This document shows positions 1-48,472 of a stretch of 48,472 nt of DNA, piece after piece. Below the pieces are notes generated by a model that saw nothing but the letters and a program-made list of their open reading frames with translations, ran no database searches and was not told the DNA's origin. A program made the translations under genes and the position numbers. The stretch is taken from positions 1-48,472 of the forward strand of contig JAFSPR010000102.1 of the NCBI GenBank assembly GCA_017451395.1. The letters run 5' to 3'. How positions within the stretch are numbered: the stretch's first letter is position 1; each line of letters starts with the position of its first letter. Source of the stretch: Bacteroidales bacterium (GTDB lineage Bacteria; Bacteroidota; Bacteroidia; Bacteroidales; UBA932).

Positions 1-5
1 GCGTT

Positions 6-30
6 AAAAACCCGCTCGTTTCCGAACGGG
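6..30 (-). terminator. Hairpin plus T5, candidate intrinsic terminator or leader hairpin
   Basis: On the minus strand an inverted repeat (arms at 23-30 and 11-18, four-base loop, one mismatch) is followed by five T at 10-6. It lies downstream of the last gene of the leftward operon and could end it. However, a good promoter (35-65) fires into it from 5 bp away, so it might instead be a 5' leader hairpin of the next leftward transcript. Confidence 0.5.
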
Positions 31-34
31 ACTG

Positions 35-65
35 CAAAGGTACAACCTTTTTTTGAATCTCCAAA
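35..65 (-). promoter_or_regulatory. Bacteroidales-type promoter reading off the left edge
   Basis: On the minus strand, TTTG (65-62), a 19-bp spacer and TACCTTTG (42-35) match the Bacteroidota primary sigma-factor consensus (TTTG, about 19 bp, TAnnTTTG). The start point would be near 28, inside the hairpin at 11-30. The gene it drives is outside the window. Confidence 0.5.
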
Positions 66-124
66 CTTTTTCGAAGAAATTTTTAAAGAAATATTTAAAA
101 TTTTTTATAAAGCCTTAAAACTCA

Positions 125-523
125 CTACTTTAGCTCTTCAACAAATTTTTGGGCCTCTTTTGAGCGCGGCAGGAGGCGTTTTACGGCGCGGAGCCAGGCA
201 TCGGCCTCATCCTCTCCCACACCCTTGAGGGGGAATTCCGCCTCCACGGCGCCGCATACGGCCTTGACCACTACGCTGAGGGCGGTCTGGCTTATTGAGC
301 CGGGCGTTTCCATACGGTCAAGAACCTCTCCGTAGACAAAGATCTCCTGGCCATCGGCCGAAACCGTATGCCCTCCGGCCTCCAGCATCTGGGTAAAACG
401 CTGCACCAGAACCTCCTTTGCCGCGGACGGCACGGAGGCGGTATCTACTTTTATAGAATAATCACGCGCATACACGCATACGCACGTGAGAAGGGCTATA
501 GCCGACAGTAAAAACTTATTCAT
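125..523 (-). CDS. Small secreted protein of unknown function, last gene of the glucan operon
   Basis: A 132-residue protein that I do not recognise. It begins with a clear Sec signal peptide (hydrophobic residues 4-17, likely cleavage after VYA), so it should reach the periplasm or beyond. The mature part is acidic, mixed alpha/beta in appearance, and has no metal or catalytic motif I can name. The start at 523 was chosen because the signal peptide begins there; an in-frame upstream start at 559 would add 12 non-signal residues inside the neighbouring gene. It overlaps the 3' end of the upstream GH144-like gene by 8 bases, which suggests translational coupling and membership in the polysaccharide operon. 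Confidence 0.7.
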   Translation of the reverse strand: MNKFLLSAIALLTCVCVYARDYSIKVDTASVPSAAKEVLVQRFTQMLEAGGHTVSADGQEIFVYGEVLDRMETPGSISQTALSVVVKAVCGAVEAEFPLKGVGEDEADAWLRAVKRLLPRSKEAQKFVEELK

Positions 524-2150
524 ACGCAATTCCAAGTTTTGTAAGGCCGCCGCGGACATCCTGGTTTTTCATAAAGAGTTTCCACAGAAGCGCCGAGCGG
601 TGGTTTTCTATCATTGCAATAATCGGGCCCTGGTCTATCGCAAGGTAAGAAGAAGCGAACCATCCGCTATCAAGACAAAATGCATCCTTGAAGCCGTAAG
701 TGCCGAAGAGGCGGTCTCCAAGTTTGTAGTAGAAGTAGCGGAGGGCCACCATACTCTCATCGGGCATATACGGCATAGAAGCCAGCGCCGCCGTGGGAGC
801 GATGGTTCCTTTGTCGTTGGAGGGGGAAGAAGCCGTGTAGCCGCCCGGGTAATCGCTGGCGGTAAGGCCCCAGCAATTCTCTGAATATCCCGCGTGCCCG
901 GCGGTATTACGCACGCAGTAATCGTAGTTGTAGCGCGCCTGGGCAACGTTCTGCGCCCAGTAACTGCCGTTTGAATCGGAAAGGTTGCGGGGATCCAGGC
1001 CAAGGAAGGAATAGTGCGCGAAGAAAAGCGGCTGATTCTTTGCCACGGGGAAAGTGAAGGTTCCCCAGCCCTGGCGGAATACATCGGCCGATATGGTATG
1101 AGTGGGGGAAGACGCCGCCAGCACATACACTATAAGGGCCTCGTTCCAACCGCGGATATGCATATTCATAGCCCAGTCCTTGTCCGGGGACCAGTGCCAG
1201 TAGAGCACCTTCTCCCCGCCGCGGGTGTACCAGTCCCACTCCACGCCGCGCCAGAGGGCGTCGATGCCCGCGCGGATATCGGCCTCACCATCCCTGTCAA
1301 AATAGGCCGATGCCGTGAGAAGGCCTTCCATAAGGAACGCCGTTTCCACAAGGTCTCCGCCGTTGTCTTTGTCCGAGAACGGGATTACCTTGCCGGTGCT
1401 GCCGTTGAGCCAGTGGGAGTACGCGCCGTGGAAGCGGTCCGCTTTCTCAAGGAAGCCGATAATCTTCCGCATACGCTCAGCGCCTTCTTCGCGGGTAATG
1501 AAACCGCGCTCGATGCCCACGGGGATGGCCATAATGCCAAAGCCGGAGCCGCCGGAAGTGACCGTGTCTCCGCTCCCATAGCGCTCACGCGCAAGGCCGG
1601 AGACGGGGTGGGCATAGTCCCAGAAGTACTTGAAAGTGCGCTCCTGGACCAGCGTCAGGAGTTCTTCGTCGGGGATTTGCGGGAACTTATCAGATGTGTC
1701 GTCTATATCAGACTCGGTAGTTATCCAGAACGTGAATTCCTTCTGGAGATTCACCCCGAAGCACTCCCCTGCCGATATGGTAAACCTGTACCGCGTGTCA
1801 GAGGCAAGCACCGCATCCGGCTTGAATACCAGCACTGTGGAGTTGGAAGGATCCACGGAAACGGAGAGGCTTCCGCCGGAAAAGTCCACCGATGACAGGG
1901 ACTTTGAATCGGCCTTTACATCCCTTGAAAACTCCAGTGATATTGACGGGGAAAGCGAAACCCTGTCCAGGTTTTCCCTTTCCCTTACGGCCTTTCCGTC
2001 AACTTTGGCCGATACGACGAGGGCCTTGGGGAGAGGCCCTGAAGGGGTTTCATCCGCAGCAGGAGTCTCCTCCGGAGGCGTTTCCACCGGAGGAGGCGTG
2101 CTGCAGCATACTGCCACAACGGCGGCAGCGAGTAAAAAAAGGCGTTTCAA
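516..2150 (-). CDS. GH144-type glucanase lipoprotein with N-terminal Ig-like domain
   Basis: A 544-residue exported glycoside hydrolase. Residues 1-16 are a lipoprotein-like signal ending in Cys15-Cys16. Residues 17-38 are a Pro/Glu/Thr-rich linker, about 40-146 a bacterial Ig-like (Big_5-like) domain, and about 155-544 the glucoamylase-like catalytic fold (PF10091) classed in CAZy as GH144, whose characterised members cut beta-1,2-glucan. The conserved block GGDLVETAF (264-272) and the paired FHGAxxHW motif are shared with the paralogue at 7732-9009. The start is TTG: it directly follows the TAG stop of the preceding gene in the same reading frame, and the signal peptide begins exactly there. 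An AGGA lies a few bases upstream. With its linker and extra domain it is a candidate surface enzyme that makes oligosaccharides for the SusCD importer. Confidence 0.85.
   Translation of the reverse strand: MKRLFLLAAAVVAVCCSTPPPVETPPEETPAADETPSGPLPKALVVSAKVDGKAVRERENLDRVSLSPSISLEFSRDVKADSKSLSSVDFSGGSLSVSVDPSNSTVLVFKPDAVLASDTRYRFTISAGECFGVNLQKEFTFWITTESDIDDTSDKFPQIPDEELLTLVQERTFKYFWDYAHPVSGLARERYGSGDTVTSGGSGFGIMAIPVGIERGFITREEGAERMRKIIGFLEKADRFHGAYSHWLNGSTGKVIPFSDKDNGGDLVETAFLMEGLLTASAYFDRDGEADIRAGIDALWRGVEWDWYTRGGEKVLYWHWSPDKDWAMNMHIRGWNEALIVYVLAASSPTHTISADVFRQGWGTFTFPVAKNQPLFFAHYSFLGLDPRNLSDSNGSYWAQNVAQARYNYDYCVRNTAGHAGYSENCWGLTASDYPGGYTASSPSNDKGTIAPTAALASMPYMPDESMVALRYFYYKLGDRLFGTYGFKDAFCLDSGWFASSYLAIDQGPIIAMIENHRSALLWKLFMKNQDVRGGLTKLGIAYE
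1083..1092. repeat. Example of the iterated GGCCGAT motif (palindromic double copy)
   Basis: ATCGGCCGAT contains the iterated heptamer on both strands (1083-1089 and 1086-1092). Further copies read by eye include 200-206, 353-359, 1278-1284, 1305-1311, 1908-1914, 2007-2013, 2820-2826, 3105-3111, 3483-3489, 3969-3975, 4344-4350, 5504-5510, 6489-6495, 36313-36319, 39522-39528, 40600-40606, 43403-43409 and 44063-44069. About 61 copies occur in the window. Confidence 0.75.
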
Positions 2151-3191
2151 CTATTCCTGCTCAAGATTGATGTTGAGTTCTTCCTTGTAAAGGGCAGAGA
2201 TTTCCTCTGCGCTGAGAGCCTTGTTGTACATACGTACTTCGTCGATGGAGCCCGCCCAGAAACTCTGCCAGGCCGCAGTTGAGTGTCCCTCCACATAGGT
2301 GGACCAGGCGCCCACATAGAATGCATCTGCGAAGTCTGTCACAAGGTTATTGAAGGCGATGTTGGGGTCGAAGGCGCGTTCTGCCACAAGCTGGCCGTTG
2401 GAGTAAAGCGTAACGGTTGCGCAGGTCTTCTTTTCTCCGTCCGGATTCTCAGGATCCACGGGCTTCTGGGTGTTGAGCTCATAAGTGACGGCAAGCTGGA
2501 ACCACTGGTCATAAATGGCAAATGCGGGGTCGTTGGTGTCCAGCCATACATTCTGCTCTGCGCCCTTGTCGTCGTGCATAATAAAGCGGCCGTTTACCTG
2601 CTGTGCGGGAACCTCCTGCTCGTCGATGATAACGGGATTGTTATTATCCAGATAGACGATGAAGGCCGGGAAGTCGTGGGGCTTGTCACCGTTTCTTCCG
2701 CCATTGAGGGAGACCACTCCGCCCTTGTAGTAACTCTTGTTGTTATTGATCCAGACGGTAAAGGTCATATTATCAAGTTTCTTGAAAAGGTTATCCTTGG
2801 CCACGTCAAACTTGGAATAGGCCGATGCCGTGTTGTTCTTGGCATTGTTCACCCAGCCCTTTCCGATGAAACCGGTCTTGATGGCTGCGTCTCCCTTGTT
2901 CTCCTTGAATGAAACGCCTTCACCCTTCTCGATGAGGTTGTCATTATCAAAGGAAATCCAGAGGACCAGGTTTTCGTCGCAGGTTTTTACCTTGGGGCCT
3001 TCGGGCTCAGTATTACCGCCTCCGTTTTCTCCTCCGTTGTTATCTCCACTATTATCTCCGCTATTATCTCCGGTATTGTCGCCTGTCTGGTCAGCGGGTT
3101 TTGAATCGGCCCTGTCGGCGCCGGGTTTTGTGCAGCTGAATCCAATGAGGACCAGCGAAAGCATTGCTGCTAAATAAAGAACTTTTTTCAT
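2151..3191 (-). CDS. LamG/concanavalin-like domain surface lipoprotein
   Basis: A 346-residue lipoprotein (lipobox ending at Cys20). A low-complexity Asp/Asn/Gly linker at about 36-60 contains four 4-residue GDNx repeats. From about 75 to 335 is a LamG-like jellyroll (ConA-like lectin/glucanase superfamily), with typical VLWISFD, FTVWI and IDEVRMYNKALSAEEI elements. It sits directly after susD, where Bacteroidota loci often encode surface glycan-binding proteins (SusE/SusF position), so binding of the target glucan at the cell surface is the likely role. No glycosidase catalytic pair is evident. Its TAG stop abuts, in frame, the TTG start of the next gene. Confidence 0.8.
   Translation of the reverse strand: MKKVLYLAAMLSLVLIGFSCTKPGADRADSKPADQTGDNTGDNSGDNSGDNNGGENGGGNTEPEGPKVKTCDENLVLWISFDNDNLIEKGEGVSFKENKGDAAIKTGFIGKGWVNNAKNNTASAYSKFDVAKDNLFKKLDNMTFTVWINNNKSYYKGGVVSLNGGRNGDKPHDFPAFIVYLDNNNPVIIDEQEVPAQQVNGRFIMHDDKGAEQNVWLDTNDPAFAIYDQWFQLAVTYELNTQKPVDPENPDGEKKTCATVTLYSNGQLVAERAFDPNIAFNNLVTDFADAFYVGAWSTYVEGHSTAAWQSFWAGSIDEVRMYNKALSAEEISALYKEELNINLEQE
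3036..3083. repeat. Four tandem 12-bp repeats coding GDNx
   Basis: Four imperfect 12-base units within the linker of the LamG lipoprotein encode GDNT, GDNS, GDNS and GDNN on the minus strand. The repeat probably expands and contracts by slippage and sets the spacer length between the lipid anchor and the binding domain. Confidence 0.7.
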
Positions 3192-3215
3192 AATGGTATT
3201 TGGTTAATGGTTAAA

Positions 3216-4688
3216 TCAATATCCGGGATTCTGCGGCAGGGCAGAGTTAAGCTGGCGCTGGTTGGCCGGTATGGGGAAGACTTCGTTCTTCCCGGCCTTG
3301 AAGCCAAGGGGCCCCAGGACCTCCGCGGCCTTACCCCAGCGAACGAGGTCGAAGAAACGGTTCTCCTCAAGGGCAAGTTCTGCACGGCGTTCGTCGTAGA
3401 TGTTATCCAGCGTAGCAGTTGATGCCGGGAGCCCAGCACGGGCGCGGACCTCATTGAGAGCCATATCGGCAGTATATCCTGAGGCCGATGCTATAGATGC
3501 GCCGTTTGCCATAGCCTCCGCATAGATAAGGAGTATCTCCGCGTAACGGATAATCCTCATATTGTGATCAAGGCCGTAGGCGTTGAAGGAACGGGTGCTG
3601 TAGCGTGAGGGGACATACACCTTGCCGTTGTAATAAGGGTTGGAGCATTTGTCGGAAATGGTGTCCCCTTCCGGGGTGGTGGCGCCGCTTTCAAGAAGGG
3701 TCACCGCCTTGCGGATAATGTCTCCGCGACTGTCGAAGAAGTCTATGAGAGCCTGACTGGGAACCTTGTATCCCCATCCCTGCAGAGGCTCATTGCCGTT
3801 TCTGGGACCCTGGATGAAGCCGTAGTAGCATATGGGCATAGCGCCGGAGCTCTGGCCCATATCGGAACTCTGGATTTCCATAAGGGATTCCGGGCCGTTC
3901 TCGTGCTCCACGCTGAAGGCGTCACGGAATTTGGGCATAAGGGAGAATTTCCCTGAGGCGATGATTGCATCGGCCTCCTTTGCAGCCTCGGTCCAGTCCT
4001 TGTTGTAAAGGGCAACCTTTGCCTTGAGGGCCATTGCCGTGTACTTTGTGTAGCGGCCGGGCATATCCACATAGGATTCCGGGAGGGTCTCGATGGCCGC
4101 ATCTATATCGGCATAGATGAACTTGTAAAGGTCCTCAACGGAACTCACCTCCTTGGAAGCAAGTTCTGCGGAGTCCATTGTCCTGTCTATGAGCGGCACG
4201 CGCCCGAACAGGCGCACGAGGTTCCAATAGGCGTATGCGCGGATGAGACGGGCCTCTGCGCGGCACTCCTTGACCTGCTGCTTTGCGTCATCGGAAGTGG
4301 CCGCTTTTTCGAACTCCGCCATAGATTCAACGGCATAGTTGGAGGCCGATACTATATTGAAGAATATGCTCCAGATATACTGGATGTGCTCGTTTTCCGG
4401 GCCGTACTTGAAAGTGTCAAATTCCTTCACAAGCGGACCGTCATCGGCAGAACTGCCTTTGTCGTCGTCGTCGGAGGGAATGCCCAGGACGGCTACGTAG
4501 TTGAGGGCCTCGCCTTCCCCAAGGCGCATACTTGCGTAGGCGGCGCTCACGGGAAGGAAGATATTCTCCGCCTTGGTATAATCTGTACCGGTAGAGGGCA
4601 TTGTAGCCTCCGTGCGGATGTTCAGGAAATCCTGGCAGGATACAGCCGCAAGAAGTGCGATTACTATAAGGATATATTTAGTTTTCAT
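3216..4688 (-). CDS. SusD/RagB-family glycan-binding outer-membrane lipoprotein
   Basis: A 490-residue lipoprotein (lipobox AVSC, Cys18), a usual SusD length. N-terminal TPR-like helices (about 60-200) and the C-terminal RagB/SusD region are present, including IRYAEILLIYAEA, ALNEVRARAGLP, DERRAELALE and a final FPIP..QNPGY segment typical of the family. SusD proteins form the lid over a SusC TonB-dependent transporter and bind the oligosaccharide at the cell surface. Its start is 12 bases after the SusC stop, the standard SusC-SusD arrangement. The neighbouring GH144 and GH3 enzymes suggest a beta-1,2-glucan ligand, which is an inference. Confidence 0.95.
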   Translation of the reverse strand: MKTKYILIVIALLAAVSCQDFLNIRTEATMPSTGTDYTKAENIFLPVSAAYASMRLGEGEALNYVAVLGIPSDDDDKGSSADDGPLVKEFDTFKYGPENEHIQYIWSIFFNIVSASNYAVESMAEFEKAATSDDAKQQVKECRAEARLIRAYAYWNLVRLFGRVPLIDRTMDSAELASKEVSSVEDLYKFIYADIDAAIETLPESYVDMPGRYTKYTAMALKAKVALYNKDWTEAAKEADAIIASGKFSLMPKFRDAFSVEHENGPESLMEIQSSDMGQSSGAMPICYYGFIQGPRNGNEPLQGWGYKVPSQALIDFFDSRGDIIRKAVTLLESGATTPEGDTISDKCSNPYYNGKVYVPSRYSTRSFNAYGLDHNMRIIRYAEILLIYAEAMANGASIASASGYTADMALNEVRARAGLPASTATLDNIYDERRAELALEENRFFDLVRWGKAAEVLGPLGFKAGKNEVFPIPANQRQLNSALPQNPGY

Positions 4689-4700
4689 AACGCTTCCTCC

Positions 4701-7700
4701 TTAGAAATTGATGTTTACGCCGGCGGTATAGATGGCCTGCATGGGGTAGACGGAAGAGGAGTCTATGCCAGTTGCGATGGGAGAGCCTCCGATTTCCGTG
4801 GTGAAACCGTTATAGCCGAACAGCGTAAGCGGGCGCTGGGCGCTCACATATATTCTGATGCGTCCGCTGCCGAAAACGTTGCGGAAAGTATAGCCAACCT
4901 GCACGTTCTGGATGCGGAACATGGAGCCGTCCTCAATCCAGAAACTGTTGGACTGGGCCATAAGGCCGGAAGTGAGGGCCTTGGGAGAAGGATATGTGGT
5001 GGAAGGAAGATCCTTGCTCCAGGCGTGAAGGTAGAAGTCGTAGTCGTAGTTACCTGCAGGGAAGACCTGCTTGTTGAGACGCTTGGCGTTGAAAATCTTG
5101 TTGCCGATATTAGCGTTCATAACCATCGAGAAGTCAAGCCCCTTCCACTGGAAGCCAAGGTTCAGGCCCAGCATAAGCCAGGGCAGCGGGGAGCCCAGGT
5201 ACACGCGGTCTGCGTCCGTGATCTTGCCGTCCGGGCCGCCGTCATCGGCTCCTGCGAAATCGTGATAGGCAAAGTATCCGGCGCCTGTATCCTGTTGGTC
5301 GGGGACGCCCTCGGCCAGGGCCTCCTTACGGCTCTGGAAGATGCTGTCCACCTTGTAGCCCCAGAATGCGCCGATGGGGTATCCAACCTGAGTGAGAGTG
5401 GATGCAACGCCGTTCACATAGCCGCCGGGGATGTTGTCACGGCCTTCAAGGGCAAGGACCTCGTTGTGGTTGAAGGTGGCGTTCATTCCTACGTTGTAGG
5501 AGAAATCGGCCCCTATCTTGTCCTCCCATTTGAGGGAGAATTCAACGCCGGTGTTGAGCACGCGGCCGTTGTTGGCAAGGAGGGTGGCTACGCCGCCGCC
5601 GGTTGCGATTGGCGCGTGGAAAACTACTCGGTCAGTGACCCTCCGGTACCAGTCAATCTCACCGCTTAGGCGGCTGTCAAGCATTGCGAAATCGGCACCC
5701 ACATTGGTCTCCGTCACAACCTCCCACTTGAGGTAGTTCTGGAATACGGTCTGGGCGCCCACACCGTCCACAAGGGTTTCTCCAAAGAGGGCCGATGAAT
5801 CCACGCCGCTGCGGCCGGCGATGTTTATGTCGTTGGCGGGGACGTTGTCGTTACCCAGCATACCCCAGCTGGCGCGGAGTTTCAGGAAACTGAGCCAGGA
5901 GGAAGCGCCCTTCATAAAGGATTCGTCGGAGATGTTCCAGCCAAGGCCCACTGAAGGGAAGACGCCCCACTTGTCCTGATACTTGGAACTGCCATCGGCA
6001 CGTACCGTAACGGTGGCAAGGTATTTTTCCTTGTAATTATAGGTGCCCCTGGCAAAGAAGGAGAGGCCGTTGTAACGGGATGCTCCGTCTCCCGATTCCT
6101 GATTCTTGTAGGAGCCGTTCACAAGGTAGCGGGAAGCGGCGTCAAAGTCAGGAACGCTGTTTCTGCGGCCGTTGAGCCAGGCATTGTACTGCATACGCGT
6201 GGACTGGCCCAGCATAGCCGTGAAGGAGTGGGCGCCTATGTGATCCGAATACGTAAGGGTGTTGTCCAGGATGTGGTACAGGCCGTACGCGTAGGTCTTG
6301 GAGAGAGAGGATACGGACGTTCCCTGGGAGCCACCAACCTTGTGCTCAGGGGTGTAGTTCTGCTCGTCGGCAAAACTGAAATCAAGGTTGTAGGCGGTCT
6401 TGAACTTAAGTTTTTCCGGGATGATGGTGGCCTCCGCGTAAGCGCTGAACACGGTCTTGATGCCGGTGTTGGTGCTGTTTGTATAATAGGCCGATGCCGC
6501 CGGGTTTCCGAACGCCGCCGCGAAGCCGTAGAGTTGAGGGGAGTCGAACTTAACGGGATATGCGGCCTCATTGGCTTCATTGTACACGCCGTACACGGGC
6601 GGATTCACGAACGCCTGGTAGTACACGCCCGAATTGGGATTATTCTGGTTGTAGCGTGAAACCACGGTGTTGAAACCCACTTTGAGCCAACTGGTAAGGG
6701 TCTGGTCCAGGCGGGCGCGGAAGTTAAGACGGCCGTAATTGTTCTTGCAGTAATTCATAATGCCGTCCTGGAAGAAGTAACTCAGGCCCACGGAGTAGTT
6801 GGTCTTCTCCGTGCCGCCTGAAAGGTCCAGGGAGTGGCTGTGGGTAAGGGCGGGCCTCACCAGCGTGCGGTACCAGTCCGTGCTTACGCCTGTATTGGCT
6901 GCAAGGGGGTAGACGGTATTGAAAGGGTCGTCGGGATTTGCCAGATTGTACATCTGGATGTACTGCTGGGCAGAAGCCATAGGAAGGATGTTGGTGGGCA
7001 CCTGGACGCCGCCGTAGCCGTCGTAGGCCACACGGACCTTCCCCGTTGCACCCTTCTTGGTGGTGACAAGGATGACGCCGTTTGCGGCGCGTACGCCGTA
7101 GATTGCCGCGGCCGATGCATCCTTGAGCACTGTGAGGGATTCAATATCCGATGCGCTCAGGAAGTCTATGTTATCCATAAACGCGCCGTCCACTATATAC
7201 AGGGGATTGGCATAGTCTCCGATTGAGCCCACGCCGCGGATCTTGACGGAAGGGCCGGCGCCGGGGGCTCCGCTCTGGGTGATCTGGACGCCGGAAACCA
7301 TACCCTGGAGGGCGCTCATAGGGTTGGCGGCAACCTGCTTTGCAAGTTCTTCACCCTTCACGTTGGTGATGGGAGCGGTAAGGTCCTTGGCTTTCTGGGT
7401 GCCGTAACCCACCACAACAACCTCATCAAGGAAGGTGGTGTCTTCGCCAAGAAGGATCTTTGCGGGGACTGCCGATGCCGGGAAAACCTGAGAGGCATAG
7501 CCAATGCAACTTACCTCAACCTTTGCATCGGCCCCGGAGACGGTGAGGACAAAGTCTCCGTCAAGGCCCGTTGAGACGCCGTTGGTGGTGCCCACTTCCA
7601 TTACGGTGGCGCCGATAACCGGCCCCAGGGCATCCTCAACAACGCCTTTCACCTGATACTGGGCAAATGCCGTGGCGCTTGCAAGTATCAGGGACAGCAG

Positions 7701-7721
7701 TGCTATTAATACTTTTTTCAT
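4701..7721 (-). CDS. SusC/RagA-family TonB-dependent outer-membrane transporter
   Basis: A 1006-residue TonB-linked receptor. It has a signal peptide (1-20), a carboxypeptidase-regulatory-like domain (about 22-92), the VVVGYGTQ motif at the plug start, and a plug with PLYIVDGAF and DASAAAIYGVRAANGVILVTTKKG-like motifs. A long beta-barrel ends in the terminal aromatic INF. It imports oligosaccharides across the outer membrane with energy from TonB-ExbBD, working with the adjacent SusD. It lies between the second GH144 gene (start 7721; GH144 stop 7732) and susD. Confidence 0.96.
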   Translation of the reverse strand: MKKVLIALLSLILASATAFAQYQVKGVVEDALGPVIGATVMEVGTTNGVSTGLDGDFVLTVSGADAKVEVSCIGYASQVFPASAVPAKILLGEDTTFLDEVVVVGYGTQKAKDLTAPITNVKGEELAKQVAANPMSALQGMVSGVQITQSGAPGAGPSVKIRGVGSIGDYANPLYIVDGAFMDNIDFLSASDIESLTVLKDASAAAIYGVRAANGVILVTTKKGATGKVRVAYDGYGGVQVPTNILPMASAQQYIQMYNLANPDDPFNTVYPLAANTGVSTDWYRTLVRPALTHSHSLDLSGGTEKTNYSVGLSYFFQDGIMNYCKNNYGRLNFRARLDQTLTSWLKVGFNTVVSRYNQNNPNSGVYYQAFVNPPVYGVYNEANEAAYPVKFDSPQLYGFAAAFGNPAASAYYTNSTNTGIKTVFSAYAEATIIPEKLKFKTAYNLDFSFADEQNYTPEHKVGGSQGTSVSSLSKTYAYGLYHILDNTLTYSDHIGAHSFTAMLGQSTRMQYNAWLNGRRNSVPDFDAASRYLVNGSYKNQESGDGASRYNGLSFFARGTYNYKEKYLATVTVRADGSSKYQDKWGVFPSVGLGWNISDESFMKGASSWLSFLKLRASWGMLGNDNVPANDINIAGRSGVDSSALFGETLVDGVGAQTVFQNYLKWEVVTETNVGADFAMLDSRLSGEIDWYRRVTDRVVFHAPIATGGGVATLLANNGRVLNTGVEFSLKWEDKIGADFSYNVGMNATFNHNEVLALEGRDNIPGGYVNGVASTLTQVGYPIGAFWGYKVDSIFQSRKEALAEGVPDQQDTGAGYFAYHDFAGADDGGPDGKITDADRVYLGSPLPWLMLGLNLGFQWKGLDFSMVMNANIGNKIFNAKRLNKQVFPAGNYDYDFYLHAWSKDLPSTTYPSPKALTSGLMAQSNSFWIEDGSMFRIQNVQVGYTFRNVFGSGRIRIYVSAQRPLTLFGYNGFTTEIGGSPIATGIDSSSVYPMQAIYTAGVNINF

Positions 7722-7731
7722 ATTTGGTTAG

Positions 7732-38568: not shown

Positions 38569-38580
38569 TGTTTATTTTTG
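38550..38580 (+). promoter_or_regulatory. Promoter of the fimbrial operon
   Basis: TTG at 38550-38552, a 20-bp spacer and TATTTTTG at 38573-38580 form a strong Bacteroidota promoter. Start is expected near 38587. The leader up to 38673 holds a C7 run (38599-38605). Confidence 0.65.
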
Positions 38581-38673
38581 TCAGTTATTATATAAACACC
38601 CCCCCAGGAGAGGCTATGTATTAGTGCTTTCGCGGGGTTTTTCGACAGAGGATTTTAGTTAAAGTTAGTGTAT

Positions 38674-38850
38674 ATGGAATCTTGTAAAAGATACATTGCT
38701 CCAGCCATAATCAGAACGGTTTCCGTAGAACTGGAGACCGAGATTCTTGCCGCTTCCACCATCCAAAAGAGTTCCGAAGTGAAAACTATGGGTCAGGAAG
38801 TTGTCACTATGGATTTTTCAGAAACCTCCTTCAACCAGGTGTGGGAGTAA
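38674..38850 (+). CDS. 58-residue peptide of unknown function, first gene of the fimbrial operon
   Basis: A short acidic protein starting MESCKRYIAPAIIRTVSVELE, followed by EILAAS and ending SFNQVWE. There is no signal peptide. It resembles the small, unnamed ORFs with a YIxPxI...ExxILAAS pattern that often accompany fimbrillin-type gene clusters in Bacteroidales; that is from memory and is not a named family. The ATG at 38674 is used; a GTG at 38668 would add two residues. It is 15 bases upstream of the first fimbrillin-like gene and shares its promoter, so it is probably translated and may regulate or assist pilus production. Confidence 0.6.
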   Translation: MESCKRYIAPAIIRTVSVELETEILAASTIQKSSEVKTMGQEVVTMDFSETSFNQVWE

Positions 38851-38865
38851 TAGAGAGGAAGAGCA

Positions 38866-39936: not shown

Positions 39937-39955
39937 CAGAAAGGAGAAGACAAAG

Positions 39956-41422
39956 ATGACAAATAAGTTCAATACAATACTTATTCCGGCCCTGATGGCC
40001 CTTCTGGCAGTTCCCGCCTGCAGCCGCATTGAAAATGCCCCCAAAACGGCAGAGAAAGAGGGAATCCGTTTTGCCGCTCCCCTCCAGACAAAGGCTACCG
40101 ATGCCGTGAACACCACCAGCGTTTTCCAGGTCCGCGACTGGTACAATGGCAGCCAATACCACATCAACAACACCCTCAGGTGGAATGCAACCGAGTCCCA
40201 GTGGGTCTATGGTACCGCGGCAAATTATGTATGGGCCGGTGGAAATCACCTGTTCTTCAGTTGGCTGGAGCACAATGAAAACTACAGTACCGCCGCCTTC
40301 TTCGGCACCGGCCTGAGTGCCAGCGGCAATACGCTCACCATTCCGGCAAAGGCTCTGACCACATCTACCCAGCAGTACGACTTCATGTACTCCAACCCGG
40401 TGAGCCGCAACACTTCCGCCAACGACTATTCGGATGTCCCCCTGGTTTTCAACCACCTTTTTGCTCAGGTGGCAATGTCCTTCCAGATATCCGACCAGAC
40501 CCCGAACGGAGAACAGCCCATATATCTTCACGGGGTATATCTGAACGATGATTTCATCAATAGCAAGAAAACCGTTATCACTTTCAACGATGACGGAACG
40601 GCCGATGTCGCTTTCAGCAATCCCACTAAAGGAGCCTTCTCCCCCAGGACCGATTTTGGCGGAATTTCCTACGGTAAGGGGGATACGCCCGTCGATATGC
40701 TTTCACAGCATCAGTCAAACACAAAGGATTTCTACTATTTCTGGCCGGCGGAAGAAGCCGAACTGTCTGAAGTTATCACCGTTGTTTACCAAATAGACGG
40801 AGAGACGGATCCCGTCACAGGAAACCCGTACATCCGTACTTCTAAACTTTCATTCCCCAATGGCACTACCTGGAAAGGCGGTCACAAGTATTCCTATACC
40901 GTCACCTATATGGGCGCTATCTTCAAAGTTGAAGAAACCGTTATGGACTGGGACTACACAGAACAAGCAGCCTCTGTAGAGAATCAGTCGGCTATGGCCT
41001 CATGGGTTGACTGGGATTCCTCCTCCTGCACTATCAGCGGAAGGAATATCACTTTCAAGACAGACCTCCAGGGAAAGCTTATGCCCATCCACGGAATGTT
41101 CAAGATATTCTCGCCCACCCAGTGCACCTACCACATCAACCTGTCACAGAACGCGTCTTACTACTCCTTCAATCACGATTTCGGAAGCGGCATTGTTGAC
41201 ACAAGTACAGGCTCCATTGGAACTTCAACCGGCGATATCCTTCCCGGCACCACCATAGACTTCTATATTTATGCCGATGACAACGACCGTCCGGCGGCGG
41301 GCCAGCCTGACATTACGGCAGACCTGAGTTTCTCCGTACAGGCATCCGGCGGCCGTGAATTCTCCCTGGACTCCGAACTCCAGAGGGATGGCGCCTATAC
41401 AATAATAATCCCCAGCATGTAG
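39956..41422 (+). CDS. Fimbrillin-family (Mfa-like) lipoprotein
   Basis: A 488-residue lipoprotein (lipobox VPAC, Cys22) of the fimbrillin-like family. It contains the early GIRFAAPLQTKATDAV motif, FVFNHL-like VFNHLFAQVAMSF in the middle and GHKYSYTVTY near residue 312, all recurring in Mfa-like pilus proteins. From about 345 to the end is an additional beta-rich domain. It is probably a shaft or accessory pilin and follows the shorter fimbrillin in the same operon. Confidence 0.82.
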   Translation: MTNKFNTILIPALMALLAVPACSRIENAPKTAEKEGIRFAAPLQTKATDAVNTTSVFQVRDWYNGSQYHINNTLRWNATESQWVYGTAANYVWAGGNHLFFSWLEHNENYSTAAFFGTGLSASGNTLTIPAKALTTSTQQYDFMYSNPVSRNTSANDYSDVPLVFNHLFAQVAMSFQISDQTPNGEQPIYLHGVYLNDDFINSKKTVITFNDDGTADVAFSNPTKGAFSPRTDFGGISYGKGDTPVDMLSQHQSNTKDFYYFWPAEEAELSEVITVVYQIDGETDPVTGNPYIRTSKLSFPNGTTWKGGHKYSYTVTYMGAIFKVEETVMDWDYTEQAASVENQSAMASWVDWDSSSCTISGRNITFKTDLQGKLMPIHGMFKIFSPTQCTYHINLSQNASYYSFNHDFGSGIVDTSTGSIGTSTGDILPGTTIDFYIYADDNDRPAAGQPDITADLSFSVQASGGREFSLDSELQRDGAYTIIIPSM

Positions 41423-41428
41423 TGTGAT

Positions 41429-43714
41429 ATGAAAAAGTCAATCAGTATAACAGCAGTTTTTGCAGCGCTTCTTTCAATCGCGGCGTGCCAGCAGGTACCG
41501 GAGCCCGGGCAGGACGTTTCAAGTGAAAACGGAATCCGCCTCACTTTTACCTGCGGGGACATTAACACCAAGGCGGTTAAACCCGGCGTTGGCAACGAAA
41601 ACCTTATCAAAACGCTGGACGTTTTCCTGTTTAGCAATTCCTACCCGGAATTCAGGCACCATTCGCGCTTCTCTCCGGAGATTGAATCCTATTTTACCTG
41701 CTTCATTCAAGCCTCGGCTATAGCGGACGGTGAATATAAGGTATTCTCTATCGCAAACTATCCCGGTCCGGAATCCGACTTCTATGACAGTGGCAACCCA
41801 ACCACTATGGCATTTTTGCAGGCACTTGCGCTAAGCGAGGGTTCCCACCGCACTTTCACCCAAGAAGCCGGCGGCAACATAATGCCTGCCGAAGATGAGG
41901 ACCTTAGCCTTGTTATGACAGGCCTGGCAGAAAACATCCACGTGGCTCCAGTTCTCGGTCAGAATCTGGTAGGTAAAGCAAATGTGGAACTTAAGCGTCT
42001 CCCTGCCAAGGTTACAATGGATTTTTACCTGAAGGATGAGGTCAATCACGACAAAGGGAACGTCACCGAAGTCTGGACCCCTCTCACCGAAGGCAGCAAT
42101 ATTCGCGTGTACCTTTGCAACGGTACCACGGAAGCCCTCGTGGGCGGTGTTGACGCAAACCATACCTTATTTGATTATTATCCAAATATTAACAATACAG
42201 CCATATCTGGAAAAGCCGATTTCTCTACTGCTTTTTCAAGTGCGTCGTTCTATACCTATCCGGAAACTTGGTCTTACGGTTCGGCCACGGAGCCTTACCT
42301 TAAACTCATAGTTCCCTGGAAACTTTCCCGAAGCACTTCCGGAATAGTGCAGCAATCCCAGAAGGAGTACTATTATAAGGTAATGCTTCCCACCAACGCC
42401 TTTGAGAGCAATAACTGGTATCACCTTGTCCTTGACGTCACTCAACTTGGCGGTAATGCCGATGACGAGGCCGTGAACGTCCCTTGCGGCTATCAGGTAC
42501 TGGACTGGAGAACTGGCAGCGCTATTTCTTCCTCTATGTCTCCCGGTTACTACCTGGATGTGAACGTACCTGATCCTATGGATATCAAGTTCTACGGCAA
42601 CACACTGGATATCCCGTATTTTGCCAGCGGTACAGTTGCTATCCGCAGCAAACAGTTGGATTATGAGTATTTCCGTACCGGTACTCATGTGACCGAGGAT
42701 CCGGGCGCAGCAGTCGCAAAAGCAACTGACGGCGATTTTATCCACATCGATCACACGTTGAAATACGATTTCACTACGGATGATTATGACGTGTCGCCTT
42801 ATACCTTTACAATCGTCCTGCAACTAGCAAATGACGATATCGGGCAGTACGACAAAACCTTGAAGGTTACGCAGTATCCGCCGCTGTATATTACCAATAC
42901 AGATACGTATAACTCCGCCAACAGTCCGTCTAACGTATACGTCAATAACTATAACGCGACTACCGCCAGAGTTAAGGTTTGGGACGACTCGGGCCTGAGT
43001 ACCACCAGTACCATTTCAGCCACGTACCAGCCTCATTACTTAGGCTCTATCAACTACAATTTAGGGGCTGTTCCGTCTTTCGACCCTAATGCCAGTAATC
43101 AGAATCCTAACATCTATTCTGTTACTACAACCATCCTTAAATTCACGCCTGTTATCAATGGTGGCCCGTTCGAGACGGTTCTTGGAGATCCCCGTGCAGC
43201 CGCCACCAATGAATATAGCTCCCTTTTGAACGGGGGTGATGCAGGTAATCCTCTTACCGATTATCGTCCTACAGACCCTGATGCGCAGAATGTGATTTCT
43301 CCTAAATTCATCTCTGCTTCCTCTTACGGAAGAACTTATGCTGTTTCCTATGAGGGCGCAAGGAAGAGATGTGCCGCTTATCAGGAATCCGGTTATCCCG
43401 CAGGCCGATGGCGCCTTCCTACCAAGGCGGAAATCCTTTTCCTCCAGAAACTTAACACTGATAATAAGATCCCGAAGCTTTACGGCACATCCCAGGAATC
43501 AGGTTATTGGGCGGCCGGTCATCTTCTTTTCATTCAGGATTCCGGCGGCAACGATACGTTTATGACAATCGATGATGCCGATGCTTCTGGTGGTACAAGT
43601 GCCGTCACCTACAACGGTCTTAGCGGATATGTCCGTTGCGTCTATGACACCTGGTATTGGGGAGAAGACCCTGTTTCAGGAACCGGTTGGCTTGGATACC
43701 AAACCAGTCTTTAA
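41429..43714 (+). CDS. Fimbrial subunit with FimA-like N-terminus and lectin-like C-terminal domain, candidate tip adhesin
   Basis: A 761-residue lipoprotein (lipobox IAAC, Cys20). Residues about 30-340 are fimbrillin-like: DINTKAVKPG, IKTLDVFLFSN, VELKRLPAKVTMDFYL and NNWYHLVLDV. Further beta domains follow. The last about 130 residues, with ARKRCAAYQESGYPAGRWRLPTKAEILFLQKL and a closing YVRCVYDTWYW, resemble the DUF1566/FISUMP C-type-lectin-like fold. Such C-terminal domains are expected on pilus tip adhesins. The two Cys may form a disulfide. It is joined to the previous gene with a 6-base gap. Confidence 0.78.
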   Translation: MKKSISITAVFAALLSIAACQQVPEPGQDVSSENGIRLTFTCGDINTKAVKPGVGNENLIKTLDVFLFSNSYPEFRHHSRFSPEIESYFTCFIQASAIADGEYKVFSIANYPGPESDFYDSGNPTTMAFLQALALSEGSHRTFTQEAGGNIMPAEDEDLSLVMTGLAENIHVAPVLGQNLVGKANVELKRLPAKVTMDFYLKDEVNHDKGNVTEVWTPLTEGSNIRVYLCNGTTEALVGGVDANHTLFDYYPNINNTAISGKADFSTAFSSASFYTYPETWSYGSATEPYLKLIVPWKLSRSTSGIVQQSQKEYYYKVMLPTNAFESNNWYHLVLDVTQLGGNADDEAVNVPCGYQVLDWRTGSAISSSMSPGYYLDVNVPDPMDIKFYGNTLDIPYFASGTVAIRSKQLDYEYFRTGTHVTEDPGAAVAKATDGDFIHIDHTLKYDFTTDDYDVSPYTFTIVLQLANDDIGQYDKTLKVTQYPPLYITNTDTYNSANSPSNVYVNNYNATTARVKVWDDSGLSTTSTISATYQPHYLGSINYNLGAVPSFDPNASNQNPNIYSVTTTILKFTPVINGGPFETVLGDPRAAATNEYSSLLNGGDAGNPLTDYRPTDPDAQNVISPKFISASSYGRTYAVSYEGARKRCAAYQESGYPAGRWRLPTKAEILFLQKLNTDNKIPKLYGTSQESGYWAAGHLLFIQDSGGNDTFMTIDDADASGGTSAVTYNGLSGYVRCVYDTWYWGEDPVSGTGWLGYQTSL

Positions 43715-43742
43715 CGAATTGCTTGACGAGATTTAAAGAGAT

Positions 43743-46700
43743 ATGAAAAAATTATATTCCATATTTTCAGTCTTGCTTGTGCTTGCTTCCGTGTCCTGTA
43801 CACGTGAGGAGCCGATATCCATAGCCAATTTTGAAAATGAGGGCGCAACAGTTCCAGTTGTCATCTCTTTCCAGGAGCCATTGGTCCTTCAGGCCTCTAC
43901 CAAGGCCGAGCCAGGAATGGAAATGGGGGTTGAGCCTGCAATCAGCAGCATCAACGTTGCCATTTTCGGTACAGACCGCTACCTGAAAGACTATGTGAGC
44001 GCCTATCCTTGCGATGCGCAGGGCAATCCCCTCGGCGGAGGCTTTGCATCTCAGAATGCGACATCGGCCTATTTCCTTGCCCGTCTTCCCATCTCTTCCA
44101 AGGAGCGCGTGCTCCATATCATCGCCAACGGCCCGTCATCCCTGCCGTTCAATGCATATGAGAACGATATTATGCAGAACATGACGGTCACCGACGGCAA
44201 CGGCGCATATTGGCAGCGTGTTGTCCTCCCCGACGGAATTCAAATAAAGGAAGTTGACGGAAACCCCGAGCAAACTCCTGAAGGAGAATATATCCCTACT
44301 GACGCAACCGTAGCAGCCCTTTGCAACCTCACCCTCATCCGTAACTTTGCCAGCATCACCGTTACCGAAGAAGCGGCAAACTTCGAGATTGTCTCCTACA
44401 CGCTCTGCAATATGCCCAGGAGCGGTGCCATCGCCATGTACAGCACCAACCACGGAGACTGGGTTTCAGGCTACACAGACCCTGCCCTCACGCTGTCCAA
44501 TTACATCTACAATTACGGCGGAAAAGACTATCTGGGCTTCCCCACAAATCCTGATATAGATACCGATATCCCTACCACGGTGGATGCATTTAACGCCCCG
44601 GGCGTATCTGTCGCCGCGGGTGAAACTATCTATGTATATGAGAGGGCTGTCACCACAGAAAATCCGCCTTTCATCCTGATGGCGGCACGTTATGTTTCCA
44701 GTGGCACTCCGGATTCCTCAACACCTATCCACTACTACCGACTGGACCTTGCTCTGGAAAGCGGATACTTCCCTATTTACAGGAATTTCACCTATGGCAT
44801 CAAAATCTCCGAAGTGTCGGTGGACGGTTACGAGAATATCTCCGATGCTGCGGGTCATAACAGCGGAAGCAACTTCTCCGTTTCCCTTGATACCCGCACC
44901 CTTCCCGACGTTTCCAACGGTGTTGTGCGTCTTTATGTAGAGCAGCCCAACTTTGACTGGGTGTACACTGCTGACAGCCAGAAATTCTGGTACAAGTTCC
45001 TGCTGAACGGTGCCGCCAGCGGCAACCTTAACGGGAACGTTACGGTTACCGAGAAAGAAGGCAATGCCATTAAAACGCTTTCCGTAGACGGCAGCGACAG
45101 CGCAAACAACCAGCGTTATGTGAACTATACGCTGAATGTGCCCAATGGTACGTCCACACTTTCTTCCACCCTGCAGTTGATAGGAACGTATAACGACGGC
45201 GGAGACATCTACAGGCTTGTCCGTATGGTTACAATCCGTGTGTTCAACGCCAAGGAAATATCTCCATCTCTTTCACCCGCTACGGTTGCGGACGAGGAGG
45301 GGCAGCTCACAACCCTGAGTATTCCACTTCCCTGGGATCTTCAGGCCTCTATGTTCCCTATGGAAATCCTGATTGAGGACAGCGCCAAGGCATTGAATCC
45401 TGCTTCCAATGAAAATATGCCTGTGAAAACCACCGGTATAGAGAATCTGGAAGAGCCCTTCAAGTCGCTTTCCGGAAACAATCAGTCTTCATACTGCTTT
45501 GTCCGCACCCTCAACTGGTCTGAATACCAGCGCCTGAAGAACAACGCAGAACTTTCCGGAAGTGACGACATTATCCTCACCTGTGATTTTGAGACCACAA
45601 AGGCTTTCTCAACTTCCACGGTGTATGTCTATAACAAGTATTTCAAAACCGATGCTTCCGGTGTAACCACCGCCCAGACAACACTGACCGGTGACGCCAA
45701 CAACAATATCACGCCTAACCGTCAGACAGTCTCCGGAACTGCTGCCACCGTCAGGGTGAAATCTACCGGAAACTGGGTGCTTAATATAAGTATGGCTAAT
45801 GGTGGCGTAGCTGCCGGCGCATCCATCAGTCCTTCCAGCGGCAGTGCAACCGCAGGACAGGATGTTGCCGTTACCCTGCCAGAGAACGTGACGGAGAATG
45901 CCATACGTTATCTGGTCACCCTCACCAACACTTCATCCAGCCTTGTCCGTACGGCCTACATCACCCAGGAAGGCATTATGATGAAACTGACATCGGCAAC
46001 AACTACTGTCGACAACGGCGACAACTCGGTGACCGTCACCGTTGAGTCCGGCACAAACTATGTCATTGAACTTATTGATGAAGGCGGAAATGTTCTCAGT
46101 ACATCCGCAGATCAAACGCCTACAACCGGCCCTACTAATTATAATGTAAACATACCGCAGAACACTACAATCCACGAGCGTAGATTCACGGTGCGTGCAC
46201 GTAACCTTAGCAGTACTGTTTGGGAAGATATAATCATCACCCAGGAGCCCGGTGTGGTAAGCGTATCTGCCGCCAACGATGAACTCCGTAAGTCCGATAC
46301 ATCGGCAAGCGTACATCTGGTCAGCAGTTTTGCCACCAACCTTAAGGCCTACGTTCAGGGTAATGACACGCCCATCTACACTGCTGCTATTGCCGAAACT
46401 GCAGGCCGCGATGAAACAATTACAGGCATTCCTGTCAATGGTACAGGCTCTGACCGTCACATCATCGTAAATCTTTGCGACACTTCTACAGGAGATGTCC
46501 TCGCATCCAAGACGTTGACGCAACTGGGAACATCGTACATCAAACTCACCACCGCCAATGCCAACATTGGCAACACTACCACTTCGGCATCTATCAATGT
46601 AGATTCCGAGGCAGCGTGGACATTGACTGTGAACGGTACTCTCAGCGGTGCCAGCGTGTCTCCTTCAAGCGGCCCTGCCGGTTCAACCAATGCTGTTACC

Positions 46701-47768
46701 CTCACTGTTCCCGTGAATAACAGGCTGCAGCCTCAAACCTATACCGTCACGGGTGACAACGGCTCTCACAGCAACTCCGTCACCGTTACCCAGGCTGCCG
46801 GTACTGCTACACTGAGTATTGTGGACAGCAATATCTGGATGAGTGCTACATCTGCTAATGCGAACGTATCCTCCAGTTTCCCTACCGTTCTGAAGGTTTA
46901 CGTTCCCGGTAATCCCAGTCCTGTGTTCACAAAGGACGTGGCGGCAGCCGCAGTCCATAATGAAGCCCTCACCCTGCCGGCCAACACTACCGGCGCCAAC
47001 CGCACCATCAGGGTTGACCTTTGCAATGAGGACGGAATAGTTGTGGCTACCGGTAACATAGTTCAGGCAGGAACACCTGCGTTCTCACTTACCGCAGCAT
47101 CAACCTCGGTAATAGGTAATGCAACCACTACCACCATCCAACTGGTTTCCGAACTCCCTTGCGACCTTACCGTGGATGGCGATGGCGCAAGCATTTCCAC
47201 CCCTCTTGGAACCACCGGTGTTACAACCGATGCCGCCGGAACCACCATCACGCTCACGATGCCCGTCAACTACACCACATCTGACGTGCCGTTTACCGTG
47301 AAGGCCTCCAGGACCAGTTATGCCGACCAATCCGTGGTTATTACCCACCGTAAGGCCACCCTGCGCACCGGCCAGACGGTAACGTTCCCTTGCGGCAGTG
47401 GACGCGTGTATTCAGGTAGCACCTTGACTGATACAAGAAACGGTATCACTGCGACCTTCGAAGGGACCCTGAACTCTACCTCCAGCACGAACCATATCCG
47501 CTTTGGCAGTGGAACACAGTTGCGTTTCACCACTGACGGCACGAAGGTTTATGAAATAACTAATGCATCTTTTGAGTTTACAGGGAATAATTATCGACCC
47601 AATGGTGGTTCTGCATCAAACGGAACGATGAGTTGGGGAACAACCACCACCTGGACTAAGAGCGGCACCAATCCTGTGAAGTCTCTTGACATTACATTTA
47701 CCAGGGCGGGCTACACCTTCAGGTTGTCATCCTTCACCGTAACTTACACAGATTACCAGTGGAACTAA
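43743..47768 (+). CDS. Giant fimbrial/adhesin lipoprotein with six tandem BACON-like domains
   Basis: A 1341-residue lipoprotein (lipobox SVSC, Cys19). The N-terminal part (about 30-370) is fimbrillin-like, with LQASTKAEPG, ISSINVAIFG and LIRNFASITV. A middle beta-rich region (about 380-650) follows. Six Ig-like BACON-type repeats end in TQ-like strands at about 741, 833, 926, 1016, 1108 and 1201, spaced 90-94 residues. A C-terminal beta-sandwich (about 1206-1341, ending FRLSSFTVTYTDYQWN) may bind carbohydrate or mucin. Repeats 3 and 5 are clearly more alike than the others. It would extend far from the cell as a stalk or tip adhesin. It is the last gene of the operon. Confidence 0.8.
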   Translation: MKKLYSIFSVLLVLASVSCTREEPISIANFENEGATVPVVISFQEPLVLQASTKAEPGMEMGVEPAISSINVAIFGTDRYLKDYVSAYPCDAQGNPLGGGFASQNATSAYFLARLPISSKERVLHIIANGPSSLPFNAYENDIMQNMTVTDGNGAYWQRVVLPDGIQIKEVDGNPEQTPEGEYIPTDATVAALCNLTLIRNFASITVTEEAANFEIVSYTLCNMPRSGAIAMYSTNHGDWVSGYTDPALTLSNYIYNYGGKDYLGFPTNPDIDTDIPTTVDAFNAPGVSVAAGETIYVYERAVTTENPPFILMAARYVSSGTPDSSTPIHYYRLDLALESGYFPIYRNFTYGIKISEVSVDGYENISDAAGHNSGSNFSVSLDTRTLPDVSNGVVRLYVEQPNFDWVYTADSQKFWYKFLLNGAASGNLNGNVTVTEKEGNAIKTLSVDGSDSANNQRYVNYTLNVPNGTSTLSSTLQLIGTYNDGGDIYRLVRMVTIRVFNAKEISPSLSPATVADEEGQLTTLSIPLPWDLQASMFPMEILIEDSAKALNPASNENMPVKTTGIENLEEPFKSLSGNNQSSYCFVRTLNWSEYQRLKNNAELSGSDDIILTCDFETTKAFSTSTVYVYNKYFKTDASGVTTAQTTLTGDANNNITPNRQTVSGTAATVRVKSTGNWVLNISMANGGVAAGASISPSSGSATAGQDVAVTLPENVTENAIRYLVTLTNTSSSLVRTAYITQEGIMMKLTSATTTVDNGDNSVTVTVESGTNYVIELIDEGGNVLSTSADQTPTTGPTNYNVNIPQNTTIHERRFTVRARNLSSTVWEDIIITQEPGVVSVSAANDELRKSDTSASVHLVSSFATNLKAYVQGNDTPIYTAAIAETAGRDETITGIPVNGTGSDRHIIVNLCDTSTGDVLASKTLTQLGTSYIKLTTANANIGNTTTSASINVDSEAAWTLTVNGTLSGASVSPSSGPAGSTNAVTLTVPVNNRLQPQTYTVTGDNGSHSNSVTVTQAAGTATLSIVDSNIWMSATSANANVSSSFPTVLKVYVPGNPSPVFTKDVAAAAVHNEALTLPANTTGANRTIRVDLCNEDGIVVATGNIVQAGTPAFSLTAASTSVIGNATTTTIQLVSELPCDLTVDGDGASISTPLGTTGVTTDAAGTTITLTMPVNYTTSDVPFTVKASRTSYADQSVVITHRKATLRTGQTVTFPCGSGRVYSGSTLTDTRNGITATFEGTLNSTSSTNHIRFGSGTQLRFTTDGTKVYEITNASFEFTGNNYRPNGGSASNGTMSWGTTTTWTKSGTNPVKSLDITFTRAGYTFRLSSFTVTYTDYQWN

Positions 47769-47793
47769 CCTCCCGGTAATCTCCCTCATAATG

Positions 47794-47832
47794 AAAATTG
47801 GGTGACCTTCGGTTGAAGGCCACCCAATTTTT
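47794..47832. terminator. Strong bidirectional intrinsic terminator
   Basis: A 10-bp stem (47795-47804 with 47821-47830) continues after one mismatch into a further 5-bp stem (47806-47810 with 47815-47819) around a GGTT loop. A/T runs flank both sides. It lies between the convergent fimbrial operon and groEL and can end transcription from either direction. Confidence 0.88.
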
Positions 47833-47848
47833 AAATAAGAGGAAATGA

Positions 47849-48472
47849 TTACATCATTCCGCCGGCGGGCATTGCGGGGGCTGCGGGAGCGGGCTCCGGG
47901 ATGTCAACGATACCGCATTCGGTGGTGAGGAACATACCGGCTACGGAAGCGGCGTTCTCAAGAGCCACGCGGGCCACCTTGGTAGGATCAATAACGCCGG
48001 CCTCGTACATCTTCACGTATTCGTCCGTGCGGGCGTTGTAACCGAAGTCACCCTTTCCTTCACGGATCTTGTTGATGATGACGGATGCCTCTACACCTGC
48101 GTTGGCTGCGATCTGACGGAGGGGCTCCTCAATTGCGCGCTCGATGATGTGGATACCGGTGGTCTGGTCATCGTTCTCACCCTTGAGACCCTTCAGGGCC
48201 TCTGCTGCACGGATGTATGCTACGCCGCCGCCGGGAAGGTAACCTTCCTCAACTGCTGCACGGGTGGCGTTAAGGGCGTCGTCCACGCGGTCCTTCTTCT
48301 CCTTCATCTCAACTTCAGTGGTAGCACCCACGTAGATTACTGCTACGCCGCCGGCAAGTTTGCCAAGACGCTCCTGGAGTTTCTCGCGGTCGTAGTCGGA
48401 CTTTGTGGTCTCAATCTGGGCACGGATTTGATCGGCCCTGTCCTTGATGGCAGCCTGGTCTCCAGCGCCGCC
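47849..48472 (-). CDS. groEL: GroEL chaperonin, C-terminal 207 residues (5' end outside window)
   Basis: The visible part begins [20 protein letters not shown] at the right edge and includes [46 protein letters not shown], the [12 protein letters not shown] segment, [18 protein letters not shown] and a terminal Ala/Pro-rich MPAGGMM. This is the intermediate and equatorial C-terminal portion of the 60-kDa chaperonin, including the ATP-site region. It folds cytoplasmic proteins with GroES, which should lie upstream, beyond 48472. Confidence 0.98.

Follow-up and report, generated by a model that had tools for sequence, protein, structure and literature searches.

GGCCGAT, a hyper-abundant word kept copy by copy in one clade of rumen Bacteroidales, as a candidate self-recognition signal

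Using a 48,472-nt stretch of a Bacteroidales genome and genomes of the same genus, family and order, we analyzed the heptamer GGCCGAT and its reverse complement ATCGGCC. The whole stretch (positions 1..48472, hereafter the window) is contig 47 of the source assembly, labelled G000, which comprises 2.15 Mb in 133 contigs and is 81% complete. The word is far more frequent than composition or codon usage predicts, its copies are individually kept between related genomes, and it is limited to one clade of rumen Bacteroidales. We tentatively interpret it as a genome-wide self-recognition word maintained by transfer-biased drive, an explanation to which we give somewhat less than an even chance. GGCCGAT is the commonest heptamer of the window, with 33 forward and 28 reverse copies, i.e., 61 in total, compared to 6.6 copies expected from base composition. 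These numbers reproduce those of an earlier sequence-only reading, which had counted about 61 copies on both strands against a random expectation of about 6-7. There are 1601 + 1572 = 3173 copies in the source genome, versus 109 + 132 = 241 for the reversed word that served as a control. An exact word that recurs on the order of once per kb is hyper-abundant in the manner of uptake sequences, and 3173 copies in 2.15 Mb are within the range given for Neisseriaceae (943 to nearly 6000 per genome, PMC3630211).

To control for codon usage, synonymous codons were shuffled within each gene over 302 kb of the source genome, with genes called simply as the longest open reading frames (ORFs). This part contains 442 copies, including 420 in coding sequence, 20 in intergenic sequence and 2 at edges. 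The shuffle predicts 65.7 coding copies, compared to the 420 observed. The excess was greatest where the frame requires TCG (..A TCG GCC, 25-fold) or CGA (GGC CGA T.., 18-fold). A composition or Markov effect was rejected as well, since a third-order model that itself includes the motif gives 82 copies versus the 442 seen. Among the 21 one-mismatch words, TGCCGAT was found at 2.85x and GGCCGAA at 1.77x the shuffle expectation, three words at 1.34-1.54x, and the other 16 at 0.28-1.17x; the small one-mismatch excesses sit at position 6. It should be noted that the shuffled pool holds codons placed by the motif itself, so that part of the one-mismatch depletion in this test may be artefactual.

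We define a permissive site as a position where the protein allows the word by synonymous change, and such sites were counted on the DNA sampled from each genome. The word fills 609 of 1625 permissive sites (37%) in G000, 1218 of 2890 (42%) in its relative G298, 134 of 301 in G237 and 102 of 232 in G377, so that the four genomes with high copy numbers range from 37% to 45%. The mid-level genome G084 has 55 of 318 sites filled (17%), and the low genome G022 has 10 of 336 (3%). For example, the word occupies six of the seven permissive sites in the dxs gene of the source genome.

The copies were followed individually in an alignment of G000 and G298 over 148 kb at 88.6% identity. The expected retention was derived from codon retention outside motifs, and sites with gaps were set aside (233 reduced to 230). 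GGCCGAT was retained at 191 of 230 sites, compared to 77.4 expected (z 16.4); with gapped sites included, the numbers are 191 of 233 and 78.1. The retention of TGCCGAT was 59 of 100, compared to 37.7 expected (z 4.6), and retention was also high for GTCCGAT (z 3.1, six of eight sites), GGCCGAA (z 2.2) and AGCCGAT (z 2.0). It was low for GGTCGAT (z -2.7) and GGCCGAG (z -2.2), and the other 15 one-mismatch words had z within 1.3; altogether, 17 of the 21 show no clear retention excess (z at most 1.3) in this comparison. Intergenic copies were retained at 11 of 13 sites, where per-base identity predicts 0.47 per site. Around conserved copies, the divergence of the flanking sequence stays level, at 10-12% on either side as far as 600 bp. 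Taken with the excess retention, this flat profile indicates that the seven bases themselves are kept, copy by copy, and conservation via local recombination tracts was rejected on the same grounds. Over larger distances, dxs copies share positions across genomes at about 75% protein identity. Among the few permissive sites of this gene, however, sharing was only 1.22x the independent expectation for pairs below 80% identity and 0.62x for pairs at 80-90%, and deep conservation of the dxs copies was therefore downgraded.

These controls dispose of the view that the word is a by-product of codon-pair, amino-acid or mutational bias, which we regard as refuted and as having next to no chance of being correct: 397 of the 420 coding copies do lie within three of the six frames, but the shuffle yields 66 copies with the greatest observed excess in the frames needing TCG and CGA, permissive sites are filled, only TGCCGAT and GTCCGAT of the 21 one-mismatch words pass a retention z of 2.2, and intergenic copies are kept as well. 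The sequence-only reading had argued that codon bias alone is insufficient, and the shuffle, the filling of permissive sites and the retention bear this out. Two outcomes that it had named beforehand as fatal, counts close to a codon-aware expectation and equal levels of all NGCCGAT variants, were checked on parts of the genomes and did not materialize. Its emphasis on the 5' G holds in that AGCCGAT, CGCCGAT and TGCCGAT (9, 7 and 32 copies in the window) are all rarer than GGCCGAT; TGCCGAT, however, is itself above background in this species by shuffle and by retention.

The trait is limited to one clade. Of the 400 genus genomes counted, 41 carry 2000 copies or more (high genomes), 33 carry 1000-1999 and 326 carry fewer, and the densest reaches 1.90 copies per kb. 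In 24 other genera of the family (110 genomes), the maximum was 984 copies, and none of 291 Bacteroidales genomes of other families had a density above about 0.40 per kb. An RpoB tree was built from 25 rows representing 24 of 32 genomes searched; seven genomes gave no match, no rpoB was found in the source genome, the short fragments from G337 and G332 were excluded, and G279 gave two rows. One well-supported clade of 12 contains every one of the 11 rows that reach 2000 copies; its remaining member is the mid-level G366. Among the matches listed, 76 genomes have at least 70% Dxs identity to the source genome, of which 37 are above 0.9 copies per kb, 25 at 0.4-0.9 and 14 below 0.4; this spread among Dxs relatives shows that the copy level within the high clade is variable. 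The named assemblies closest to the source genome in Dxs are Bacteroidales apparently from rumen and other ruminant gut samples, namely RUG478 (99% identity), Tb.RUG.384 and RUG784 (97%) and RUG722 (96%), where RUG presumably denotes a rumen uncultured genome. The genus is probably Cryptobacteroides of GTDB. Some assemblies deserve separate mention. The two rpoB genes of G279 (L050 and L066) lie in different clades, so this is probably a mixed assembly bin. A contig titled uncultured Fibrobacter (L241, CAMHDS010000135.1) encodes a Dxs 73% identical to this clade and is probably mislabelled. G243, a member of the same genus, has 18 GGCCGAT and 14 reversed words in 1.5 Mb and perhaps has a very different composition.

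The enriched genomes have the core GCCGAT in common, and the fuller form of the word is [G/T]GCCGAT[A/G], the flanking preference beyond the heptamer being weak. At the 5' base, G237 and G406 have G, and G000, G298, G377 and G436 have mostly G and some T. G173 uses G and T equally, and in G366 T exceeds G. In agreement with these dialects, whole-genome counts of TGCCGAT are 2678 in G173, 2409 in G366 and 397 in G406. GCCGATG ranks first among heptamers by third-order Markov score in G173, G084 and G457, and the loci L231, L232 and L254 also hold CGCCGAT at 0.8-1.4 per kb. Species dialects of a single core are a property of uptake sequences.

The two strands carry the word about equally, which is also typical of uptake sequences. 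Contigs of 200 kb and 177 kb from G298 show no consistent lean, the most uneven 20 kb block having 12 versus 22 copies, and over the 41 high genomes the strand difference has a mean |z| of 0.70 and a largest value of 2.8. This balance led us to reject lagging-strand priming sites. The spread is close to random, with a variance/mean of 1.04-1.17 in 1-10 kb blocks.

The relative orientation of neighbouring copies is less simple. Compared to shuffled signs, adjacent copies are opposite in orientation in 370 of 615 cases in G000 (z 4.9) and in 722 of 1257 in G298 (z 5.3), although these two genomes share copy positions and the results are not independent. Taken alone, G237 has 89 of 141 (z 3.0) and G377 has z 0.6, and the alternation is weak or absent in G406 (z 1.1), G436 (0.4), G173 (0.3) and G366 (-0.2). 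The pooled other lineages, including G237, give 446 of 812 (z 3.2), yet their pairs 8-150 bp apart are 77 opposite versus 73 same; for G237 alone, the corresponding numbers are 20 opposite and 9 same. The overall pooled preference (z 7.6) rests partly on related genomes sharing sites. When TGCCGAT is counted too, the preference stays in G000 (z 4.5) and G298 (z 5.1) and is gone in G237 plus G377 (z 0.0) and in the rest (z -1.6 to 1.3). For G000, G298, G237 and G377 pooled, a same-orientation neighbour reduces the filling of permissive sites to a ratio of 0.40 at 0-8 bp, 0.58 at 8-30 bp and 0.77 at 30-60 bp, and an opposite-orientation neighbour within 60 bp does not lower it. Of eight neighbour words tried, only GGCCGAT has this effect (191 filled sites versus 236.7 expected at 8-100 bp, z -4.1). 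These results hint that strands are counted separately, in a lineage-dependent manner. Two opposite copies can also overlap on GGCC to form the 10-base palindrome ATCGGCCGAT, which occurs in the window once, at 1083..1092; such arrangements are uncommon (2176 copies include 50 overlapping pairs), and the excess of this palindrome was set aside as evidence, since GGCC is common to both copies.

Hyper-abundant, individually kept genome words are known from Neisseriaceae, Pasteurellaceae and cyanobacteria. The explanation that we tentatively prefer for GGCCGAT is that a sequence-specific protein acting in DNA uptake, or in the recombination of incoming DNA, would favour fragments bearing the word. 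Alleles with the word would then replace alleles without it, a biased transfer, or 'molecular drive', that would fill permissive sites and subsequently keep them filled, and dialects would track changes in the putative reader protein. Drive of this kind has been proposed for uptake sequences (PMC7811141, PMC1939737). It is favoured here as a simpler account than direct selection, which would implausibly have to act on thousands of redundant synonymous sites. ComEC, represented by its DNA channel domain (PF03772), was found in all 33 genomes tested, whether of high, mid or low copy number, so that DNA import is possible, but the high clade is not marked by it. With slightly greater reserve, we suggest that a self-marking word with dialects may have evolved independently in Bacteroidota, through transfer-biased drive and a putative reader that treats the strands separately.

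The uptake signal was one of the options offered by the sequence-only reading, and it is the best fit, although two features of known uptake sequences are missing. DNA uptake sequences (DUS) similarly reach thousands of copies per about 2.3 Mb, often within genes, and have species dialects tied to phylogeny and, in one DUS species, overlapping dyad pairs (PMC3630211). In contrast to DUS, GGCCGAT has neither an intergenic excess nor a general one-mismatch excess, whereas one-mismatch forms outnumber perfect copies in Neisseriaceae (PMC3630211). Its host belongs to a different phylum, and no receptor is known. DUS are ten to twelve bases long, versus seven to eight for the word described here. 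Pasteurellaceae uptake signal sequences (USS) resemble GGCCGAT in their density of about one per kb, fairly even spread and scarcity in newly acquired segments (PMC7811141). Uptake of USS is reported to be orientation-independent (PMC1939737), whereas GGCCGAT neighbours favour opposite orientation in some genomes, and unlike USS, GGCCGAT is short with a weak flanking preference.

Several observations weigh against a self-recognition word kept by biased transfer. The word is not over-represented outside genes, with 1.07 intergenic copies per kb versus 1.48 coding copies per kb in the 302 kb (terminators were not separately examined), and USS and DUS are under-represented in coding sequence (PMC7811141). 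The shuffle test of 21 words reveals no graded excess of one-mismatch forms. The opposite-orientation preference of neighbours in G000, G298 and G237 also counts here, because an orientation-blind uptake receptor would not produce it. ComEC is equally common in low genomes and hence does not explain the trait, we found no reader protein for GGCCGAT, and to our knowledge natural transformation of these bacteria is not known. Because the intergenic excess and the one-mismatch halo are missing, we do not file the word as a DUS or USS. Searches of open-licence PMC papers for the word, and for uptake signals or Chi in these bacteria, found no report of GGCCGAT.

The main alternative is a reader that distinguishes the strands, for instance an AddAB-type enzyme. 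The word would then act as a Chi-like signal for recombination that a putative AddAB/RecBCD-type enzyme reads in a single direction, a model that we consider unlikely. GGCCGAT is short and non-palindromic, of Chi length, and the opposite orientation of adjacent copies in G000, G298 and G237, together with the lowered filling next to same-orientation but not opposite copies within 60 bp, looks as if copies were counted per strand in some genomes. Known Chi sites, however, lean to the leading strand, whereas neither the long G298 contigs nor the 41 high genomes show a consistent lean, and the close pairs of the pooled other lineages are almost evenly divided. Chi sites are also far less dense and less over-represented than GGCCGAT, and we know of none that fill 40% of permissive positions. 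An origin-directed orientation was not seen, the strands being balanced and the origin position itself unknown. The replication-oriented form of Chi, or of FtsK-orienting polar sequences (KOPS), was therefore rejected, and the Chi-like or chromosome-architecture option of the sequence-only reading is disfavoured to that extent.

A slightly less probable alternative is a methylation-linked motif like the highly iterated palindromes (HIPs) of cyanobacteria, in which the word is marked by an orphan methyltransferase and is both generated and preserved through mismatch repair. HIP1 and alternate HIPs are likewise short, occur about once per 1000 bases, are replaced by other words in some relatives and have one-off forms mainly at end bases (PMC4390886), as do the commonest one-off forms here, TGCCGAT and GGCCGAA. 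HIPs, however, are palindromic and as a rule have a matching methyltransferase; GGCCGAT is not a palindrome, and no methyltransferase common to the high genomes was found among four families in these incomplete assemblies (type I, PF02384, was not searched). PF00145 was present in 7 of 22 high versus 9 of 21 low genomes, and matches over the cut-off were found in 2 of 18 high versus 8 of 12 low genomes for PF01555, 4 of 18 versus 6 of 12 for PF02086, and 9 of 18 versus 8 of 12 for PF07669. The 18 high assemblies are 80-97% complete, and single absences mean little, but all four families lack a match over the cut-off in G474, G332, G263 and G237. Given this joint absence in four high genomes, a common orphan methyltransferase of these families is unlikely; a shared C5, N4/N6, Dam-like or Eco57I enzyme was rejected, and the methylation-site option of the sequence-only reading is disfavoured accordingly. 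The penultimate A of the word recalls the single-strand N6-methyladenine (m6A) sites of MmeI-type and bacteriophage exclusion (BREX) enzymes, and type I enzyme sites are bipartite. As separate observations, PF01555 and PF02086 are scarcer in high than in low genomes, PF00145 and PF07669 differing less, and the sole C5 methyltransferase match of the source genome (L166, contig 98, 4799-5947) has an internal TAA.

Less probable again is that the word is bound by an abundant protein that organises the nucleoid or chromosome, and that each site is under direct selection. The near-random, even spread and the retention of single copies are what such a protein might produce, but selection on thousands of redundant synonymous sites would be hard to sustain, the copy number varies several-fold between species within one genus, and we know of no nucleoid-site counterpart of such density.

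Should GGCCGAT indeed be a self-recognition word kept by biased transfer, it would represent another independent origin of self-recognition of the uptake type, or else a new variety that is gated by recombination, and the exchange of genes among these gut bacteria may be sequence-gated. The host is a rumen genus known mainly from assemblies. Its low, mid and high species, together with the dialect shifts, form a natural series on the origin and change of such a word, and the same series lets one ask whether drive or function keeps it.

Within the window, 56 of the 61 copies lie wholly within one of the 35 ORFs used, the five others starting at 200, 353, 14489, 16848 and 36313. The copy at 14489..14495, an ATCGGCC on the reverse strand bordering an intergenic gap, had been called intergenic by the sequence-only reading; it is indeed not wholly in an ORF, but its first base is shared with an ORF that has a doubtful TTG start. 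The motif-rich part (1..14600), with SusC/SusD and other genes, has 29 copies (1.99 per kb), and permissive sites are filled at 24 of 57 (21.8 expected) in its first 11.2 kb and at 4 of 10 (4.6 expected) between 11.2 and 14.6 kb. The capsule/exopolysaccharide gene cluster (14600..36200) has 26 copies (1.20 per kb) and is somewhat under expectation, with 26 of 83 permissive sites filled versus 35.1 expected (z -2.2). The fimbrial/lipoprotein island with a FimD tip adhesin match (36200..47800) is motif-poor, with 5 copies (0.43 per kb) and 4 of 38 permissive sites filled versus 13.8 expected (z -3.5). Low filling in the island and the capsule cluster would be expected of acquired or fast-evolving DNA that has yet to catch up, and the island is perhaps of this kind. 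Among 10 proteins from three other motif-poor stretches are SusC/SusD-type proteins, a transporter, a ROK protein and an alkaline phosphatase; for 3 of the 10, no Pfam match was found. Outside the window, a locus of G084 (L040, contig 3, 6243-8077) contains a word repeated 29 times, with the first 12 gaps of 65-66 bp, and resembles an array of clustered regularly interspaced short palindromic repeats (CRISPR).

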